Source: a virus. Taken from it: a DNA stretch of 22,070 nt. The position numbers were made by a program, and so were the translations under genes. Positions 387 through 10,215 of the stretch are shown piece after piece. Below the pieces are notes generated by a model that was not told the origin of the DNA, did not search any database, and was given only the letters and a program-made list of their open reading frames with translations. The stretch's first letter is position 1, and each line of letters opens with the position of its first letter. The stretch covers positions 1 to 22,070 of the IMG/VR virus record IMGVR_UViG_3300031705_000060. The stretch is one strand, 5' to 3'.

Positions 387-710
387 ATGGTAGATGTAAA
401 AATATCTGGGCTCCCTGCAAAAGGGTCCGCGATGGTCGCGGGTGATGAGTTTGAAATAAATGACGCTGGTACTTCAAAAAAGCTTACCGGGCAGAACATC
501 ATTGACGCCAATCCAGCGCCTAGTGCCGCCAACGCTTCAGCAGCCGGCATAGTCGAGCTGGCAACGAATGCTGAGGGCATAAGCGGGACAGACAGTGCCC
601 GTGCGATGACCGCGTCAGCCGTTACCGCGGTCCTCGGAGCTGCGACCACTTTTAACAAACTCGATCAACGTAGCAAGACCGCTGCACGGTTGTCCCTATC
701 AAGACTTTAA
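387..710 (+). CDS. Small tail-fibre-like protein with GIVELATNAE motif
   Basis: This 107-residue protein starts directly after the stop of the fibre gene, with GAGGA at 374-378 eight bases before the ATG. Its N-terminus (VDVKISGLPAKGS, then GDEFEINDAGTSKKLT) resembles the short attachment segment at the start of many phage fibre proteins. The middle carries AGIVELATNAEGISGTDSAR, close to the 'GIVELAT.AEA..GTD..RAV' motif that recurs in tail fibre and collar-type proteins. The C-terminus (KLDQRSKTAARLSLSRL) is basic and helical. It is probably a short fibre or a fibre-to-tail connector; a stand-alone 107-residue version is short. The motif assignment is from memory of the family and the exact role is inferred. 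Confidence 0.6.
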   Translation: MVDVKISGLPAKGSAMVAGDEFEINDAGTSKKLTGQNIIDANPAPSAANASAAGIVELATNAEGISGTDSARAMTASAVTAVLGAATTFNKLDQRSKTAARLSLSRL

Positions 711-1150: not shown

Positions 1151-1804
1151 ATGACTATAAATAATCAGTTATTGTCGATTGGGGGCTATGCGCCCCCGGT
1201 CGCAGAAATCTCTCGAAGTGGGTTGAAATCTGTTCAGGTTTTCGATTCAAGTAGCGCTCACGGTGGCGCCGGGCACGTTACACATACGTGGACAAAACCG
1301 GAGGGTGTTACGGTGATACGTGTGCAATGCCAAGGTAGTGGTGCCAGTGGTAACACTAGCGGTAAATCAGGTGGTGCTGGCGGCTATAGCGAAAAAATTA
1401 TCGATGTGACAAACATTGTATCTGAGACAGTCACTACCGGCAACTCAGAGTCGGGTCATAATAATTCAGGTCACACTTCGTCGTTTGGGTCGCATTTGTC
1501 AGCGACGGGCGGCTACAACAACTCCAATAACAAAAGTCCATATGCTGCTACTGATGGAGGCTACGGAGGCTCTGGAGTGGGCGGAGATATAAACTCAAAC
1601 GGCGGCGGCGGAAACTCCGCGAAAGCGGGAGACGGTGGTTTCGCTGGCGCTGCTTCATACTTCGGCGGCGGGAGTTCAGGTCAGAATACAAGCAATAAAG
1701 GCACACATCCACAGGCGTATGGCAGTGCCGGCGCTGGTTGCAACAATGGATATGGCTCCGGCACCGGACAACAGGGCTGTGTAATAGTTTGGGAGTACGC
1801 ATAA
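1151..1804 (+). CDS. Glycine-rich tail-fibre tip adhesin candidate
   Basis: This 217-residue protein starts two bases after the previous stop and lacks a strong ribosome site, so it is probably translated by coupling. Residues 43-64 (THTWTKPEGVTVIRVQCQGS) match the 'W..P.GVT.IRV...G.G' opening of glycine-rich phage adhesin domains. Residues 62-205 are extremely rich in Gly, Ser and Asn, with runs such as GGYGGSGVGG, GGGGNSAKAGDGG and FGGGSSGQ. The end is a hydrophobic strand, GCVIVWEYA. Known relatives of this architecture (for example the Gly-rich adhesins of T-even-like fibres) bind receptors through polyglycine helices and variable loops. The host-recognition role is inferred from that. 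Its position just after the fibre gene fits. Confidence 0.65.
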   Translation: MTINNQLLSIGGYAPPVAEISRSGLKSVQVFDSSSAHGGAGHVTHTWTKPEGVTVIRVQCQGSGASGNTSGKSGGAGGYSEKIIDVTNIVSETVTTGNSESGHNNSGHTSSFGSHLSATGGYNNSNNKSPYAATDGGYGGSGVGGDINSNGGGGNSAKAGDGGFAGAASYFGGGSSGQNTSNKGTHPQAYGSAGAGCNNGYGSGTGQQGCVIVWEYA

Positions 1805-2157
1805 TGAAAGCTTTACTAGAACCTGACAACACTGTTTGTCAGATTGTCGCGGACAATAATACTTTTCCTGTCCACTCCACATTAGTGTGGGTTGACGCAC
1901 CAGAAGGTGTGAAAGAGGGTTTTTCGTATGACGAAGATACTGGAAAATTCACTGATGAAATGAAAGCTAACGCTGCAACCCCGGAAGGCTTGTACGACGC
2001 GTTTTCAGCCGCCCGTTTGGGCGCTTATGGAGAGGTCGGAGATCAACTCGATATGATCTATAAAGATGCGCTGAATGGCACGACACTATGGAAAGACAAA
2101 ATCACAGCGGCAAAAGCGGCGACCGCCAAAGTCGATAAACCCGACCTCCCGGAGTAG
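1804..2157 (+). CDS. Fibre-tip accessory / assembly-like protein
   Basis: This 117-residue protein starts at the ATG at 1804, which overlaps the preceding TAA (TAATG), with GGGAG at 1791-1795. The longer reading frame from 1738 lacks a ribosome site and would run into the adhesin gene. The N-terminal part (MKALLEPDNTVCQIV ... FPVHSTLVWVDAPEGV) and the part around residues 72-100 (RLGAYGEVGDQLDMIYKDAL) resemble a common phage protein type with 'Y..IGDQLD.IY..' that sits next to tail-fibre or tail-tip genes. The C-terminus is helical and rich in Ala and Lys. It may help fibre assembly or cap the fibre, but no enzymatic motif is present. Assignment is by motif recollection and neighbours. Confidence 0.5.
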   Translation: MKALLEPDNTVCQIVADNNTFPVHSTLVWVDAPEGVKEGFSYDEDTGKFTDEMKANAATPEGLYDAFSAARLGAYGEVGDQLDMIYKDALNGTTLWKDKITAAKAATAKVDKPDLPE

Positions 2158-2166
2158 GCGTAATTT

Positions 2167-3351
2167 ATGGATTTTGATAAACACTTTTCTATAGCACATT
2201 GGGATCAACACCCGAATGACGACGATTTCTACACCGCTTTCGCGGAATCAAGTGACGATTACAAAAGAGAAATCAGGGACATTTATTTTGGAGTTGAATT
2301 TCGGTACGAGCATTTAGGTCGAAGCCAGAGGTACGGCGAGACTATGGGTGTCGCGGCGACAGAAGGTCAACTCAATAACCTCTTACGCATACAAAGCGAA
2401 TTCGGTGTGGAATGTTCAATGACTGTCAATTCTTTGAACATTCCACTCGAACTAGCAACCGATCCGGTTGTATCGCAGAAATTTATAAATTGGATCGGGG
2501 AATACTACGAGAAAGGTGTTCGCAGTTGTACGCTTTCTCATACTCATTTTATGAGAAACGGCGTTCTCCAAAAGAACTTTCCAAATATGAATTGGAAAAA
2601 CACGGTTAACCAACAAGTCAAATCTGTTCAAGAAATGTACGACTTCGCGGCACTCGGCTACAACACCATCTGTTTTGACAGGTCTCTGAACCGAGACACA
2701 ACAACTCTTAAAGAAATTTATCGTGAAGCCAAGAAAGTAAAAATCGAAGTTTCTCTTTTAGCGTCAGAGGGATGCCTCCCTTCCTGTCCGTTCAAAGGAG
2801 AACACGACACTTGGCAAGAAGAATTACAAAAATCTCCACGAAATTATTGGGAAACATTTGACAACACTTGCACAGGCTGGAGAGCAAGAGCTGATGCTCA
2901 AATGCCTCGCCTCGGGACAGATATTAACATGGCGACCGAAGAGCTTTTTGAACTCTTTATGGAGAACACTGACGTTTTGAAGTTCAGCGGAAGAATGAAC
3001 GCCCCGAGCGAAATCACTGACGCGGCGTTATGCTGGACGGGAACAACCCATTCTTCGAGCCGAACAGGTGACGAAATCCAATCGGTTCCTCAATTTGAAT
3101 ACGCGGACAGTGTAAGAGAAATCTATGAGAAGAAACTTGCTCCATATCTGATAGGTCGTTGGACGCCCGGTTGGACGGCAGTATACGAAAAAAATCAATT
3201 CAAGTTAACAGGCGAAGATAACATTTGGCTTACTAAAAAAGGCAAGGGGCTGAGTAAGTTACTTTCTAATTGTAAGAATAGATGTTGGGACTGCCATGCG
3301 TGTGAAAAGGTATTTGGCGTCGAACCTTTTAATACGGTGTTGTCGTTATGA
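2167..3351 (+). CDS. U32-family-like protein (Fe-S TIM-barrel), phage accessory gene
   Basis: This 394-residue protein has hallmarks of the U32 'peptidase' family. SLLASEGCLPSCPFKGEH (residues 196-213) matches the family's '(N/E)..C...CP.R..H' cysteine motif, and DRSLNRDTTTLKEI (171-184) matches the preceding 'SREL(S/T)..EI' segment that follows a barrel strand. A second cluster, C369-x3-C373-x2-C376-x2-C379, lies at the C-terminus. Characterised U32 relatives (RlhA, TrhP, UbiU/UbiV) act in hydroxylation of rRNA, tRNA or ubiquinone, and UbiU/UbiV bind 4Fe-4S clusters; they are not proven proteases. An Fe-S oxygenase-like or modifying role is therefore possible here, but the substrate is unknown. 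The gene overlaps the sulfotransferase start by four bases (ATGA), so the two are coupled. The DNA is more AT-rich than the packaging genes. GGAG at 2151-2154 is a rather distant ribosome site. Confidence 0.65.
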   Translation: MDFDKHFSIAHWDQHPNDDDFYTAFAESSDDYKREIRDIYFGVEFRYEHLGRSQRYGETMGVAATEGQLNNLLRIQSEFGVECSMTVNSLNIPLELATDPVVSQKFINWIGEYYEKGVRSCTLSHTHFMRNGVLQKNFPNMNWKNTVNQQVKSVQEMYDFAALGYNTICFDRSLNRDTTTLKEIYREAKKVKIEVSLLASEGCLPSCPFKGEHDTWQEELQKSPRNYWETFDNTCTGWRARADAQMPRLGTDINMATEELFELFMENTDVLKFSGRMNAPSEITDAALCWTGTTHSSSRTGDEIQSVPQFEYADSVREIYEKKLAPYLIGRWTPGWTAVYEKNQFKLTGEDNIWLTKKGKGLSKLLSNCKNRCWDCHACEKVFGVEPFNTVLSL

Positions 3352-4253
3352 GCTTTAAAATACAAAAGTTATTTGCTCGGGCAGATGAGCTTAGAGCTTT
3401 TGGTGATTATGAGAACGCCTTCACTTGTTTAGAGGAAGCTAACATGCTTCGGCGTAAAAAATTACCTTTCGACATTGAAACTGATCGAGAGGTTTTTAAC
3501 CGTATTAAAACCGCGTTCAAGCGCGACTTCTTACATAACATTAACATACAATTTTCTTCTACAAATGTTGTACCGGTCTTTGTCCTCGGGATGCCGCGGT
3601 CTGGAACAACCCTAGTCGAACAGATTTTAGCTAGTCATTCGGAAGTTTACGCCGCCGGCGAATTAACGATATTGAACGAAGCTGTAAATTCTGTAGAAAA
3701 AGATTTTGGAGTTCCAGAGCTTACAGTGTTACGAGATTTTTATCTTGGAAGGCTGGAGCAACTGGCTCGGGGTAAAAAAAGGTATGTTATCGATAAACTC
3801 CCTCTGAATTTCAAATGGATAGGGTTTATCGCACTTGCTCTCCCAGAAGCTAAAATTATAAATCTAAACCGAGACCCTCGCGCGGTTTGTTTCTCTAATT
3901 TTTGTACAAACTACACCCCAGACGGAAATAATTTTGCGTATGGATTGGAAGATATTGCTCAATATTACAATCTTTATACAGAGCTTATGGATTTTTATGA
4001 CGAAAAATTTCCCCAACGTATTTTTCAAATGAACTATGAGCTTTTAACTGAGTATCAGGACACCGAGACACGACGACTTTTGAAATACGTCGGTCTAAAT
4101 TTTGAAAGTCAGTGCCTCGATTTTCAAAATAACGGTCTTGAGGTAAAAACTGCTTCTTCTCATCAAGTCAAGTCTGCGATGTACCAAGGTTCTTCACATA
4201 CTTGGCGGAATTATGAGAAAAACCTATCACCTATGTTGAAAATATTAGGATAA
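3348..4253 (+). CDS. PAPS-dependent sulfotransferase
   Basis: This 301-residue protein contains the sulfotransferase nucleotide-binding signature. The 5'-phosphosulfate loop is VFVLGMPRSGTTLVEQIL (77-94), an acidic/lysine pair DK follows at 149-150, and the 3'-phosphate site is INLNRDPRAVCFSNF (171-185) with R175 and S183. The C-terminus (SSHQVKSAMYQ, then HTWRNYEKNL) matches the end of the Sulfotransfer_3 / tyrosylprotein-sulfotransferase-like group, often fused to TPR repeats in bacteria. Residues 9-36 (FARADELRAFGDYENAF onward) look like one remnant TPR-like helix pair. It would transfer sulfate from PAPS to a hydroxyl or amine; the acceptor is unknown. Translation is probably coupled to the U32-like gene (ATGA) because no good ribosome site is seen. 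All core motifs are intact, so it is likely active. Confidence 0.85.
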   Translation: MSFKIQKLFARADELRAFGDYENAFTCLEEANMLRRKKLPFDIETDREVFNRIKTAFKRDFLHNINIQFSSTNVVPVFVLGMPRSGTTLVEQILASHSEVYAAGELTILNEAVNSVEKDFGVPELTVLRDFYLGRLEQLARGKKRYVIDKLPLNFKWIGFIALALPEAKIINLNRDPRAVCFSNFCTNYTPDGNNFAYGLEDIAQYYNLYTELMDFYDEKFPQRIFQMNYELLTEYQDTETRRLLKYVGLNFESQCLDFQNNGLEVKTASSHQVKSAMYQGSSHTWRNYEKNLSPMLKILG

Positions 4254-5349: not shown

Positions 5350-5488
5350 AGTTCTTATGTTGTTGATGTTATTTAATATAGTTGGCTGCAAAACGCTACC
5401 TAACTTTCCTATATTATTTATGTCACACCAAGATTTACTCGATCAAACTAGAGAAATAGACGGCAATAAAAAAGGAGAAGCAGATTGA
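5327..5488 (+). CDS. Outer-membrane lipoprotein spanin (Rz1-like), 53 residues
   Basis: This short frame starts at ATG 5327, 23 bases before the end of the inner-membrane spanin gene and in another frame, and stops with TGA at 5486-5488. The product begins MASIQVFKVLMLLMLFNIVG and then Cys21: a short basic N-region, a hydrophobic stretch and a lipobox (IVGC), so signal peptidase II cleavage before C21 is expected. The mature part is about 33 residues, with a Pro and a Phe close after the Cys (KTLPNFPILF) and a charged tail. Overlap of a small lipoprotein gene with an i-spanin gene is the classical two-component spanin arrangement. The ribosome site is weak (AGAAAG region), suggesting coupling. 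Its stop overlaps the TTG of the holin-like gene. Confidence 0.75.
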   Translation: MASIQVFKVLMLLMLFNIVGCKTLPNFPILFMSHQDLLDQTREIDGNKKGEAD

Positions 5489-5925
5489 TTACATTAATTT
5501 CAAGTGTCTTGGGATTTGGCACTTCTTTTCTCCCCAGAATCCTTGGATTCTTTGAGGAAAAACGTGATCAAGCCCACGAAATTAAAATGATGGATAAGCA
5601 GCTTGAGCAACAGATTAAGATCGGCAATCAGAAGATGCAGATGATGGACATATCTGCGGACATTGCTGAGAGCGAGACTATTCATAAAGAACACTCGAGC
5701 ATTACTCAGAAAAGCTCTCAATGGTGCATAAATTTGTCTGCGAGCGTACGTCCCTTAATTACGTTTTTTCTATTCTTTGAGTTTGTAATCTTAACATTCT
5801 TGCTGGCGTTTGGGTTCATCGATAACGATATGTTCTCCCTACTCTGGAATTCGGATACGATGGCTCCTGTTTTTGCAGCTTGCGTGAGTTTTTGGTTTGG
5901 AAGCAGAAGTTTCAATAGGAAGTAG
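5485..5925 (+). CDS. 3-TM holin-like protein (GTA holin superfamily)
   Basis: This 146-residue protein starts at TTG 5485, overlapping the lipoprotein stop (TTGA), with GGAG at 5474-5477 seven bases before. No ATG in a sensible place is available. Residues 3-22 are a hydrophobic/amphipathic N-terminal segment, 24-75 a charged helical region rich in Gln, Lys and Met, 90-112 a strong membrane helix (ITFFLFFEFVILTFLLAFGF), and 127-140 a second one. The C-terminus AACVSFWFGSRSFNRK with the preceding SVRPL matches the 'RP..T......W......S.WFG.R...R' signature of the 3TM holin family. It probably permeabilises the inner membrane to release the lysozyme encoded next. The superfamily call is by motif; holin activity is inferred. 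Confidence 0.75.
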   Translation: MITLISSVLGFGTSFLPRILGFFEEKRDQAHEIKMMDKQLEQQIKIGNQKMQMMDISADIAESETIHKEHSSITQKSSQWCINLSASVRPLITFFLFFEFVILTFLLAFGFIDNDMFSLLWNSDTMAPVFAACVSFWFGSRSFNRK

Positions 5926-5935
5926 GATATTTAGG

Positions 5936-6388
5936 ATGACGATGCGCATTAATGAAGCCGGTCTGGACCTCATCAAACACTATGAAGGGTGGCGCGCGTC
6001 CGTTTATCTGTGTAGTTCAAACCGAAATACGATTGGGTGGGGGAGTACGTGGGATCGTGATGGCAATGCTGTTACCCCTAACCATCCTGATATTACGGCC
6101 AAGCAAGGCGAGTATCTGCTTCTCCGCGAGGTGCGTCATTCTGAGAGAGCAATTGGAAAACTTGTCAAATCGGAGTTAACCGAAAACATGTTTTCCGCTC
6201 TTTGTTCGTTCGTCTACAACGTCGGATCCGGGAACTTTCAGCGTTCTACGCTCCGTATGAAACTAAACCGCGGCGAGTACGGAGAAGCTGCGAAAGAGTT
6301 CGGCAAGTGGAAGAAGGCTTCTGGAAAGACAATCCGAGGGCTTGTAATTCGCCGTAAATCTGAGCGCGAGCTGTTCTTAGCGGATTAA
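5936..6388 (+). CDS. Endolysin, GH24 lysozyme (T4/lambdoid type)
   Basis: This 150-residue enzyme cleaves the MurNAc-GlcNAc bond of peptidoglycan. The catalytic arrangement E17-x8-C26-x5-T32 (HYEGWRASVYLCSSNRNTIG) is the E-8-D/C-5-T triad of phage lysozymes, with Cys in the middle position as in some lambdoid and P1-type enzymes. The family's later motifs are present: ALCSFVYNVGSGNFQRST (88-105), the KW...SGKTIRGLVIRRKSE segment (124-143). There is no N-terminal signal or SAR anchor, so export should depend on the holin-like protein upstream. The start at 5936 is chosen for the GTAGGA at 5922-5927; 5942 is an alternative that removes two residues. The frame extends upstream to 5897 but overlaps the holin gene without a ribosome site. 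Confidence 0.9.
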   Translation: MTMRINEAGLDLIKHYEGWRASVYLCSSNRNTIGWGSTWDRDGNAVTPNHPDITAKQGEYLLLREVRHSERAIGKLVKSELTENMFSALCSFVYNVGSGNFQRSTLRMKLNRGEYGEAAKEFGKWKKASGKTIRGLVIRRKSERELFLAD

Positions 6389-6484: not shown

Positions 6485-8089
6485 ATGACAAAAGACATGA
6501 AACAAGACATAGATGCACAAATTCAAAAGGATAAACGCAGAGAATTACTTCTCAGGCGTAAACGTGCCGTCTTGGTGGCGCGAGACGACTTACTAGAAGC
6601 AACACGTCTCACAATGCCGCATCCAGACAATATGGACGATCCAAGGGAAAGTCTTTACGTCGCGGCGAAGCACCACGAATTAGTAGCCAAAGTATTGATG
6701 GCGGTTGAGCGCGGAGACGAGGATCGAGTAATTATCTCGGCCCCACCAAGACACGGAAAAACTCAGCTAACAACCAAGACGTTCCCCGCTTGGTACATGG
6801 GCCGAAACCCTAAACATTCTGTAATAGTTGCCACCTACAATGAAAAATTTTCAGTCGATCTGGGACGTGCAGTTAGAAATTTGATGCGCTCAACTATGTT
6901 TGGTCAAGTTTTCCCCGACGTATGTCTTGAGACGGGGTCTCAGGCGAGTGATTTTATGACCGTTGAGGATGGCGGCTCTTTAGCCTTTGCCGGACGAGGC
7001 GGAACGATTACCGGGCGTGGCGGAGACTTGCTGTTGATTGACGATCCGCTTAAAGGCCGCGAGGAAGCGGATAGCCCAACAATCCGCAACAAATTGTGGA
7101 ATTGGTATCTTAACGATTTAAAATCGCGTTTAATGACGGATAGTGGCAAAATCATAATTATTCAAACACGTTGGCACGAAGATGATTTGATCGGGAGACT
7201 GACCGACCCCTTAAACTCCTATTACGAGCCTCAAGAAGCCGCACGTTGGAAAATAATAAATCTTCCCGCTTTGGCTGAAGACAACGACATACTGAAGCGT
7301 CAAACGGACACGGCTTTGTGGCCCGACCGGTTTAGTACAAAACACCTTAAAGACTTACAGCGCGCGGACCCCCGCGGTTTTTCAGCGTTGTACCAAGGGA
7401 AACCAAGCCCCGACGACGGGGATTTTTTCAAAGACGAACACATACAAACGTATGGCCGGAAAGATTTGCCTCCCAAGGAAGCGTTGAGGTTTTACGTCGC
7501 CAGCGATCACGCCGTCTCGACCAAACAAGGTCGGGATAGCACCGTCTTAATCCCCGTTGGTGTAGACGCCGATGACAATATTTGGGTTATGCCGGATGTA
7601 TGGTGGCGGCAACAGCCGACAGACGTAGTCGTCGAGGCGATGCTGAACACAATTGAAATGTATCAGCCGTTTTGGTGGTGGGCCGAGCGCGGCCATATTT
7701 CCAAATCTATTGGGCCTTTCCTCCGCAAGCGCATGATCGAAGAACGTGTTTTTTGTGCGATGGACGAAATTGTGCCTATTAATGACAAACAGACCCGGGC
7801 CCAGAGTATACAAGCACGGATGGCGCTCGGGAAGGTTAGGTTCCCAAAGTTCGCGTCTTGGTACCCTGCGGCTCGGGACCAACTTTTAAAATTCCCCCAC
7901 GGAGCCCACGACGATTTTGTCGATGCTCTTGCGTATATAGGTCTTGGTTTGAACAAGATCGTACCGTCCAGATATTCGGGGAAGAAAAAGCGAAAAGAGG
8001 CCCAAGTCGGGACAATCGGGTGGGTCAAAGAACGGTCAAACCAAGAGCGCAAAGCGCGCGTATTAGAATCCAATAGCGGCGGGTGGTAA
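6485..8089 (+). CDS. terL: Terminase large subunit
   Basis: This 534-residue protein is the packaging motor ATPase and nuclease. The Walker A-like loop is SAPPRHGKT (85-93), Walker B is LLLIDDP (182-188) and the coupling motif IIQTRWHEDD is at 225-234. The C-terminal RNase H-like nuclease shows ASDHA (D341), WWAERG (E401) and HGAHDDFVDALAYI (D476/D477), the usual three acidic clusters. The length is typical. The ribosome site before 6485 is weak (GGGG next to the ATG); an in-frame ATG at 6497 is an alternative. The portal gene follows at once. No small terminase gene is recognised in the 96 bases upstream or elsewhere in the window. Confidence 0.93.
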   Translation: MTKDMKQDIDAQIQKDKRRELLLRRKRAVLVARDDLLEATRLTMPHPDNMDDPRESLYVAAKHHELVAKVLMAVERGDEDRVIISAPPRHGKTQLTTKTFPAWYMGRNPKHSVIVATYNEKFSVDLGRAVRNLMRSTMFGQVFPDVCLETGSQASDFMTVEDGGSLAFAGRGGTITGRGGDLLLIDDPLKGREEADSPTIRNKLWNWYLNDLKSRLMTDSGKIIIIQTRWHEDDLIGRLTDPLNSYYEPQEAARWKIINLPALAEDNDILKRQTDTALWPDRFSTKHLKDLQRADPRGFSALYQGKPSPDDGDFFKDEHIQTYGRKDLPPKEALRFYVASDHAVSTKQGRDSTVLIPVGVDADDNIWVMPDVWWRQQPTDVVVEAMLNTIEMYQPFWWWAERGHISKSIGPFLRKRMIEERVFCAMDEIVPINDKQTRAQSIQARMALGKVRFPKFASWYPAARDQLLKFPHGAHDDFVDALAYIGLGLNKIVPSRYSGKKKRKEAQVGTIGWVKERSNQERKARVLESNSGGW

Positions 8090-8091
8090 AA

Positions 8092-10215
8092 ATGGAAAAC
8101 GAATACGATACTGATTTAAACAATCACGAAGAAAGCACCGAGCAAGACAAGGTGATTTCTCGAGACACGCCCGTCCCGGAAGAAGCCCGCGCGGCTCTCG
8201 TTCAATTGTGGAATGAACGGGTCGTCGAGGCCAAAGGCTATTACTCCAAATCTTTTGATGGTATGCGCGCCGATCAGAGTTTTGTCCGGGGCACTCAATG
8301 GAAAGATCAGAACGGTAAATACGTTGCGAACATCGCGCACCGGCACGTCCAACAGAAGACGGCGTTTCTTTACGCTAAGAACCCGAGAGTGGTCGCTAAG
8401 ACGCGGGAACGGTTATTAGGCAAAGTCTGGGACGGCTCAAACAGTCAACTTATGACGGCACAACAGGCCCTAATGGGGGCCCAACAAGGCGCACCCGTAG
8501 GCCCCGAAGCTCAGACTATTGTTCAAGAGGCGGAACAAGCCAAAAGCCACAATAGAATGCTCAAACGTGTCGGGGATACTTTGGCGATCCTGTACGAATA
8601 CAATATTGATGAACAAGTCGACCCGTTTAAAGCCATGCTCAAATTGACCGTGCGCCGCACAATTACAACCGGGGTCGGGTACATTAAGCTGGGATTTCAA
8701 CGCGTTATGGAAATGCGACCGGATGTCAAGAACCAACTAGCAGATTTTACCCAGCGTTTACACACTATGGAGCGGTTGGCGGCGGATATGGCCGACGGCG
8801 AAATAGACAAAGATGACGCCGAGGCGGAACAATTGCGTCTCAACATCCAAGCGTTACAAAAGGTTGAACACGCTCTTGTTCGGGAGGGTTTGTCCCTAGA
8901 TTACCCGGATAGCACGTCGATCATTCCTGACAAAAAATGTAAAAACTTGAGGACTTTTTCGGGGTGTGATTGGGTCGCGCAAGAATACTTGTTGTCACCT
9001 GAGACTGTTCAAGAAATCTATGGCGTGGACATCTCTACGCACTACAAAGGATATTCCCGCAAGGGGGCTGACGATAGTGGCGTGGCCGCGGAAGCGACCG
9101 CGGAGATGGAAGCGCGGGAAGAAACACGCGAAGACGGCGTTCGTTCTGAGGCTTTAGTTTGGGAATGTTACAGCCGTCTCGACGGATTAGTTTACGTCGT
9201 TTGTGATGGATACCCTGAGTTTCTCGAGGAACCCGCGGAACCAGATGTCTACACTGAACGGTTTTGGCCTTGGTTCCCGGTCGTATTCAACGAAGTTGAC
9301 GACCCGAGCAACATTTTCCCGCCAAGCGACGTAACTTTAATACGGGACATGCAAGAGGAATATAACAGGTCGAGACAGGGCTTGCGTGAACACCGCAAAG
9401 CCAACAGGCCGAAGACGGCGGTCGCGGCCGGCGTCTTGGATGAAGAAGATATAGCCAAATTACAGAGCCACCCCGCCAACGCAGTCTTGGAACTTAACGC
9501 ATTGGCCCCCGGGCAGTCTATCGACCAAGTCTTACAAGCTGTTAAGGGTCCGCCTATCGACCCGGCACTTTACGAAGTCAACAGCGTTTACGAAGACATT
9601 TTAAGAGTTGTCGGCGTCCAAGAGGCGACAATGGGCAGTGTTTCGGGGGCTACGGCCACCGAGACGTCGATTGCTCAAAGTTCGCAATCTAGCGCAACAC
9701 AATCAAATGTAGACGATTTGGATGACATGCTTACACTGTTAGCCCGCTCCGCTGGTCAAATTTTGTTTAAAGAAACAAGCCTTCCAACGGTTGAGAAGAT
9801 CGTTGGCGACGGCGCAGTATGGCCGGAAATGACGATGGAAGACATTGCGTCTGAAATCTACCTACAGATTGAAGCGGGCTCGACAGGACGTCCAAACCAA
9901 GCGCAAGAAATCCAGAACGCTGAACGGATTTTCCCTCTACTTATGCAAATCCCGGGTATCGACCCGGAATGGTTGGGCAGAGAACTTATTAAGCGTCTCG
10001 ACGACCGCATTGATCTAAGCGAAGCGTTTGCCGCGCAACAACAGTCCATTGTGTCTCAAAACCAAAACCAACAGCCAACGCAAGGAGCCCCCGGCGAAGA
10101 CCCCGCGGAGCAAGGCGCGGAAGGTGGAAACAACACTCCGACACCGGCAGAGAGCCAAGCCCCTGATTTGGGCCAAATAGTTCAAGACGTGGCCGGCGGC
10201 CTGATGCAACAATAG
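8092..10215 (+). CDS. Portal protein
   Basis: This 707-residue protein lies directly after the terminase, overlapping or abutting it, as portals commonly do. The size is like the P22-type portal. Features include an N-terminal region with QLWNERVVEAKGYYSKSFDG, a charged central helix (about 205-270), a beta-rich wing region (YPDSTSIIPDKK, DWVAQEYLLSPETVQEIYG), the segment QEEYNRSRQGLREHRKANRP typical of portal helices, and GSVSGATATETSIAQSSQSS around residue 520, like the 'G..TATE.....' portal motif. The C-terminal 60 residues are Gln/Pro/Gly-rich and probably disordered. ATG 8092 is preferred to the GTG at 8083 because GGTGG (8082-8086) then lies at a normal distance. It would form the twelve-subunit DNA channel of the capsid vertex. 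Confidence 0.85.
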   Translation: MENEYDTDLNNHEESTEQDKVISRDTPVPEEARAALVQLWNERVVEAKGYYSKSFDGMRADQSFVRGTQWKDQNGKYVANIAHRHVQQKTAFLYAKNPRVVAKTRERLLGKVWDGSNSQLMTAQQALMGAQQGAPVGPEAQTIVQEAEQAKSHNRMLKRVGDTLAILYEYNIDEQVDPFKAMLKLTVRRTITTGVGYIKLGFQRVMEMRPDVKNQLADFTQRLHTMERLAADMADGEIDKDDAEAEQLRLNIQALQKVEHALVREGLSLDYPDSTSIIPDKKCKNLRTFSGCDWVAQEYLLSPETVQEIYGVDISTHYKGYSRKGADDSGVAAEATAEMEAREETREDGVRSEALVWECYSRLDGLVYVVCDGYPEFLEEPAEPDVYTERFWPWFPVVFNEVDDPSNIFPPSDVTLIRDMQEEYNRSRQGLREHRKANRPKTAVAAGVLDEEDIAKLQSHPANAVLELNALAPGQSIDQVLQAVKGPPIDPALYEVNSVYEDILRVVGVQEATMGSVSGATATETSIAQSSQSSATQSNVDDLDDMLTLLARSAGQILFKETSLPTVEKIVGDGAVWPEMTMEDIASEIYLQIEAGSTGRPNQAQEIQNAERIFPLLMQIPGIDPEWLGRELIKRLDDRIDLSEAFAAQQQSIVSQNQNQQPTQGAPGEDPAEQGAEGGNNTPTPAESQAPDLGQIVQDVAGGLMQQ

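Follow-up and report, generated by a model that had tools for sequence, protein, structure and literature searches.

A U32-fold protein and a sulfotransferase encoded beside the tail-fibre tip of a phage: a candidate tip-tailoring locus

Gene order around the U32L and sulfotransferase genes

We analysed the whole 22,070-base virus record IMGVR_UViG_3300031705_000060, which comes from a marine phage and is referred to below as the window, and in which the gene of a U32-fold protein (U32L) and a sulfotransferase gene lie side by side within a fibre block. The features of this block and of the lysis genes downstream are as follows; L003 and similar labels denote loci with which the window was compared.

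387..710, + strand: tail-fibre related protein, 107 aa; PHROG tail-fibre matches phrog_8443 and phrog_910; conserved in L003
732..1148, + strand: conserved fibre-block protein of unknown function, 138 aa; L003 homologue 82% identical; no match in Pfam or PHROG
1151..1804, + strand: tail-fibre adhesin forming the receptor-binding tip, glycine-rich (23% of 217 aa) and proposed as substrate; matches phrog_863 ('tail fiber assembly') at 1.2e-28 and, weakly, PF21722 (Gly_rich_2) at 0.0039
1804..2157, + strand: phrog_1787 protein, 117 aa, probable fibre-tip partner; phrog_1787 7e-16
2167..3351, + strand: U32L, U32-fold, putative Fe-S enzyme, 394 aa; AF2 model, fold match to 5D88, invariant Cys, phrog_1458 7e-25
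3348..4253, + strand: putative PAPS-dependent sulfotransferase, 301 aa; PF13469 5e-38; ATGA overlap with U32L
5485..5925, + strand: putative membrane protein of holin type with which the lysis block begins, not part of the module; phrog_6637 3.5e-22, weak phrog_3427 (holin)
5897..6388, + strand: endolysin, a phage lysozyme, outside the module; PF00959 2.5e-37, phrog_7 3.6e-47

Reading of the junctions revealed that the ATG start of the phrog_1787 gene at 1804 overlaps the tip-gene stop codon by one base, and that the U32L and sulfotransferase genes overlap by ATGA at 3348-3351 (TCGTT-ATGA-GC), with no internal stop in ORF 2167-3351 or ORF 3348-4253. The pair is flanked upstream by the phrog_863 tip and phrog_1787 genes and downstream by the putative holin-type and phage lysozyme genes, which bears out the original prediction of two intact, overlapping genes set between fibre-tip and lysis genes. 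Relatives of the window portal (8083-10215) among phage isolates were limited to Microcystis phage Mae-Yong1326-1 (49%) and Rhizobium phage RHph_N65 (41%), so that the window belongs to a sparsely sampled group.

The product of the second gene matched PF13469 at 5e-38 (132 bits, cut-off 27) over profile positions 1-215 of 216, and PF00685 at 3e-11. It contains the 5'-PSB and 3'-PB motifs by which membership of the PF13469 family is judged, and its conserved motifs comprise PRSGTT (83-88), E105, DK (149-150, with K150) and RDPRAVCFS (175-183, with R175 and S183). The complete PAPS-binding motifs expected of this gene are thus present, and its sequence identifies the 301-aa protein as a complete PAPS sulfotransferase of putative activity. 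The best matches among solved structures were the protein-tyrosine sulfotransferases TPST1 and TPST2 (5.5e-5), a ranking that may merely reflect which members of PF13469 are among the few solved; the PAPS loop, the Glu, the Lys and the 3'-phosphate motif align between the phage protein and TPST. In the plasmid collection, the nearest sequences were bacterial TPR-sulfotransferases at 33-36% identity. The phage protein has the PAPS-binding motifs of both groups, with its Glu aligned to that of TPST, and differs from them in being predicted to be cytoplasmic and in having, as read from the sequence, only a short N-terminal helical remnant ahead of the catalytic domain.

Fold and cysteines of U32L and features of the fibre tip

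An AlphaFold (AF2) model of U32L built from 54 relatives reached a pLDDT of 88.6 and a pTM of 0.89. Its top match among solved structures was 5D88 (Foldseek 1.7e-8; VIA Z 16.4, rmsd 3.2, 227 aligned residues), ahead of a VIA runner-up with Z 11.8, and the U32 barrel on which the original prediction had staked itself was thereby found. Because no U32 model matched U32L in Pfam (E<0.1) or NCBIfam (E<1), and because EGCLPSCP (residues 201-208) offers only a CX3C motif, the kinship of U32L to U32 rests on the fold. Canonical U32 membership by sequence was tried and rejected: besides the missing Pfam match, comparison by hhalign with one sequence each of UbiV, UbiU and TrhP yielded probabilities below 3%, too low to be usable, although such single-sequence templates are weak and kinship may still hold. 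A U32L profile likewise found no U32 match among the sequences of solved structures.

Across the 54 U32L sequences 38 columns are invariant, including C203, C207, C235, C369, C373, C376, H377 and C379. The seven invariant cysteines fall into two clusters with the pattern CX3C...C...CX3CX2CX2C, and their count suggests that U32L may hold two Fe-S clusters. The published U32 cysteine motif is CX6CX15CX3/4C, from which UbiV also departs (PMC6747719), and U32L does not contain it; the peptide EGCLPSCP, which had been put forward as the U32 motif, is present as described, and its equation with that motif did not stand. In a hand reading of a weak hhalign match to TrhP (E162, C170 and C177; PMC6599085), C203 fits C170, the Glu position is occupied by V, T or L, and CX3C replaces CX6C. 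U32L shares with UbiU/UbiV, RlhA and TrhP (PF01136) a U32-type TIM-barrel and conserved cysteines suggesting an Fe-S cluster; it differs from them in having no PF01136 match, another cysteine motif, no conservation of the essential Glu of TrhP/RlhA at the aligned position, and a mostly phage-borne occurrence in fibre loci. By its predicted structure, U32L is related to the U32 proteins in fold, has a distinct cysteine pattern and lies outside PF01136.

The nearest solved fold, 5D88, is deposited as U32 peptidase Mk0906, and a trypsin-like protease gene lies 3' of U32L in L008-L013. Both would fit U32L as a protease or folding factor of the fibre tip and not a redox enzyme, with the sulfotransferase acting alone. 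We consider this very improbable, since the invariant cysteines, seven in number and grouped in two clusters, fit an Fe-S protein, and hydroxylation is the activity of those characterised U32 proteins that have cysteine motifs (PMC6747719, PMC6599085).

A profile of the window tip and nine relatives (10-sequence alignment) matched cyanophage gp38-type tips at up to 1e-63 and had no match among the sequences of solved structures. The fold model of the tip was poor (pLDDT 63), and its matches to the Bxb1 tail tip (probability 0.94) and to the ALK glycine-rich domain are suggestive only. Like the T-even gp38 adhesins, the window tip appears to be a Gly-rich receptor-binding tip at the fibre end, with Gly-rich motifs separated by hypervariable segments as described for the gp38 tips (PMC12892980). 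A term search of that paper found no mention of post-translational modification, whereas the window tip gene is adjoined by genes of enzymes. The phrog_1787 gene lies between the tip and the tailoring enzyme in most fibre-type loci, and its product may serve as a chaperone of the fibre tip.

Distribution of U32L and exchange of its neighbours

Relatives of U32L with 32-79% identity were found in about 90 other loci (at least 79 viral loci in one scan and eight genome contigs), and at 25-30% identity U32L was found in 123 phage records, all of them cyanophages. These further loci, together with the 38 invariant columns and a dN/dS of about 0.06 for U32L (L007 against L008), indicate that the locus is more than a chance arrangement. 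A sulfotransferase neighbours U32L in five of 34 gene arrangements (the window, L003, L005, L007/L033 and L047), the one 3' of U32L in L047 being divergent and weakly scoring. Four of the eight distinct phage loci of this sulfotransferase subfamily adjoin U32L, and the other four show no U32L in the DNA examined, some of these stretches being short or bacterial-looking. A dedicated U32L-sulfotransferase pair as a general rule was consequently rejected, and the original prediction is partly supported. A fibre context was recognised in 18 of the 34 U32L architectures.

About half of the U32L architectures lie outside a recognised fibre context, which counts against tailoring of the tip. One large lineage has U32L in a replication block beside RegA and clamp-loader genes, and in L049/L050 U32L follows DNA polymerase. 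A pterin synthase/QueD-like gene neighbours U32L in L023, L025 and L040. A U32L that hydroxylates tRNA or rRNA in the manner of RlhA and TrhP, which act on RNA (PMC6599085), would suit both the neighbourhood of the translation repressor RegA and the QueD-like neighbours, and would leave the sulfotransferase as unrelated adjacent cargo. Such a target is rather improbable in view of the frequent fibre-tip context, the repeated pairing with tailoring enzymes, the slot that U32L shares with halogenases (see below) and the lack of a sequence-level match between U32L and RlhA or TrhP.

Several further occurrences of U32L were recorded. Two U32L genes stand in tandem at L053:4385-7034, where the block is of replication type and has RegA and clamp-loader genes nearby, and the pterin synthase/QueD-like gene (PF01242) lies immediately 3' of U32L in another phage lineage at L023:7295-7795 and L040:7246-8109. 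Bacterial MAG contigs L088, L089, L091 and L094 carry U32L relatives of 33-39% identity, whose neighbours comprise, among others, pyruvate:ferredoxin oxidoreductase in L089, multihaem cytochrome-like proteins in L088 and, in L094, a URO-D protein. The Thaumarchaeota MAG contig L087 matches an equally long IMG/VR phage contig (L021) and is probably a phage contig in the bin.

Comparison of related loci revealed exchange of the gene next to U32L. The window and L003 have TerL/portal DNA in common at 85%, whereas their sulfotransferases have only 57% protein identity; the sulfotransferase genes of L003 and L007 are 95.9% identical over 652 bases of DNA, and the adjacent U32L proteins are 56% identical. 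L007 and L008 resemble each other as far as the stop codon of U32L; beyond it L007 has the sulfotransferase and L008 a trypsin-like protease (PF13365, L008:6922-7770) in the same slot. In L005 a sulfotransferase lies between phrog_1787 and U32L, and L014 has none there. Judged by these alignments, the sulfotransferase gene is exchanged on its own, as a cassette. The L003 copy (7165-7999) has no in-frame start and may be decaying or misassembled, because its N-terminal part lies in another frame.

Partners of U32L include Trp halogenases (PF04820), 2OG-Fe(II) oxygenases (PF13640), DUF6445, Asp/Asn hydroxylase (AspH, PF05118), carbamoyltransferases (PF02543) and GT9. Tailoring enzymes account for 29 of 133 genes at most two positions from U32L and for 10 of 211 at positions 4-8 (Fisher p 1.7e-6, merely indicative because the classes were chosen post hoc and the lineages are related and not independent). 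Short overlaps join U32L to the sulfotransferase, U32L to a 2OG oxygenase, a 2OG oxygenase to a halogenase, and a sulfotransferase to U32L; in L024 such short overlaps link three successive genes, those of U32L, a 2OG oxygenase and a halogenase. Cyanophages Syn33, P-RSM1 and P-SSM4 carry a U32L homologue, and in two of these phages it overlaps a gene annotated as denV; the Syn33 'denV' copy has a borderline PF13640 match (0.0015) and clusters with 2OG oxygenases. Genes labelled 'DNA endonuclease V' (denV, phrog_274) at L001:11644-12144, L112:9602-10111 and L196:13415-13933 match our local 2OG-Fe(II) oxygenase profile, and the label on these phrog_274 genes looks wrong.

A shared slot beside the adhesin tip

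In most fibre-type architectures the order is tip, phrog_1787 and, immediately downstream, U32L. When 80 loci were anchored on phrog_1787, 23 had U32L, 19 a tailoring enzyme, 11 both, and eight a Trp halogenase without U32L. Nine cyanophages with halogenases of the VirX1-like group (Syn10, Syn9, S-CREM1, S-RIM44, S-WAM1, Sf-FP1, S-SZBM1, P-RSM6 and P-TIM40) have the order tip, phrog_1787, halogenase(s), 2OG oxygenases; the tip-phrog_1787-halogenase order was not seen in S-B64 or in the distant-halogenase phages S-MbCM6, S-SSM7, S-PM2 and P-SSM2. The Syn10 gene CPUG_00131 encodes VirX1, a solved halogenase (PDB 6QGM), and in Syn9 and Syn10 the VirX1-type halogenase fills the slot held by U32L and the sulfotransferase in the window. 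At L195:6482-9587 (Syn10), a Gly-rich tip pair and the phrog_1787 gene directly precede VirX1. The VirX1 locus thus has the phrog_863 tip, phrog_1787 and tailoring enzyme(s) in the order found at 1151-4253 of the window, and differs in having a flavin-dependent halogenase in place of U32L and the sulfotransferase, with a series of 2OG-Fe(II) oxygenases after it. A halogenase review gives neither a native substrate nor a gene cluster for VirX1 (PMC8407142); the position of its gene suggests that VirX1 naturally acts on the fibre tip.

Fibre genes are recombination hotspots, where cargo may land by chance. The neighbours of the tip might accordingly be auxiliary metabolic genes acting on small molecules, an explanation with which the L008 protease and nearby lysis-type genes are consistent. 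For halogenases, antibiotic-like protection of the infected host has been published as an idea, with PrnA in this role in cyanophage papers and reviews that mark it as speculative (PMC2984593, PMC9964418). We find this quite improbable, since a hotspot should gather mixed cargo, whereas narrow tailoring chemistries recur here and are often translationally coupled.

Sugars are another candidate target, either a virion-fibre glycan or a host surface polysaccharide, the latter modified to block superinfection or change the receptor; the sulfotransferase would then act on a sugar in the manner of NoeE-type enzymes. The profile of the Nod-factor sulfotransferase NoeE matches the window sulfotransferase weakly (5.7e-10; 38 bits, where the cut-off is 500 bits). 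In L072-L084, U32L is flanked by GT9 and carbamoyltransferase genes, and these partners, the carbamoyltransferases being of NodU type, suggest sugar chemistry and run counter to tailoring of a protein tip, as do the heptose and sugar-epimerase genes near the distant halogenase of S-SSM7. The annotated genes around the pair in the window include no glycosyltransferase, however, and the position next to the tip and the AspH and halogenase partners in the slot better fit protein or aromatic targets, so that we regard a sugar target as unlikely. In the S-SSM7 stretch in question (L207:2075-10867), the distant Trp halogenase is accompanied by heptose genes, 2OG oxygenases and two carbamoyltransferases of NodU type, a combination that resembles sugar chemistry.

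The reading we prefer, with a probability of about 0.5, is that the locus is a fibre-tip tailoring locus with interchangeable enzymes beside the adhesin tip, because a single slot beside the tip recurs with different, cassette-exchanged modifying chemistries. Its direct support is the gene order, the synteny across lineages, the cassette exchange, the folds and the motifs. By sequence comparison, a Gly-rich adhesin tip (phrog_863), phrog_1787 and then exchangeable tailoring enzymes form a conserved unit common to many marine phages. The partner classes of U32L with known protein-modifying members are the TPST-like sulfotransferase, AspH (PF05118) and the 2OG oxygenases, and the late fibre-block position supports the virion or surface target suggested at the outset. 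As the original prediction had stated, no phage system of this pair is described in the mostly open-access literature searched; the same search found nothing on U32 proteins with cyanophages, no phage sulfotransferase tied to fibres, and no mention of phage enzymes that hydroxylate or halogenate the fibre tip.

From this arrangement we infer the catalysis, the substrate, the order of steps and the effect on adsorption. The tip protein would be modified in the cytoplasm during late expression, before or during fibre assembly. U32L may oxidise or hydroxylate tip residues, possibly aromatic ones on the analogy of UbiU/V, RlhA and TrhP, which hydroxylate sp2 carbons; neighbour genes alone cannot show such hydroxylation. 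The sulfotransferase would then add a charged sulfate to a hydroxyl, possibly one made by U32L and alternatively that of an existing Tyr, Ser or Thr or of a sugar. Receptor binding would thereby be changed or diversified with the sequence of the tip unchanged.

More tentatively, and short of an even chance in our estimation, marine phages may practise interchangeable post-translational tailoring of their tips by hydroxylation, halogenation, sulfation and carbamoylation, with U32L as a new protein-modifying clade of U32-fold Fe-S proteins and the adjacent adhesin tip as the natural substrate of VirX1. If so, adhesin chemistry would be tuned by swappable enzymes as well as by changes in the tip sequence, which would bear on the inference of host range from genomes, and tips made without the enzymes might fail to bind. 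VirX1 would gain a natural substrate, and the many cyanophage 2OG-Fe(II) oxygenases now filed as auxiliary metabolism or 'DNA endonuclease V' would gain a role. The chemistry of the U32 fold would then reach protein, beyond quinone and RNA.
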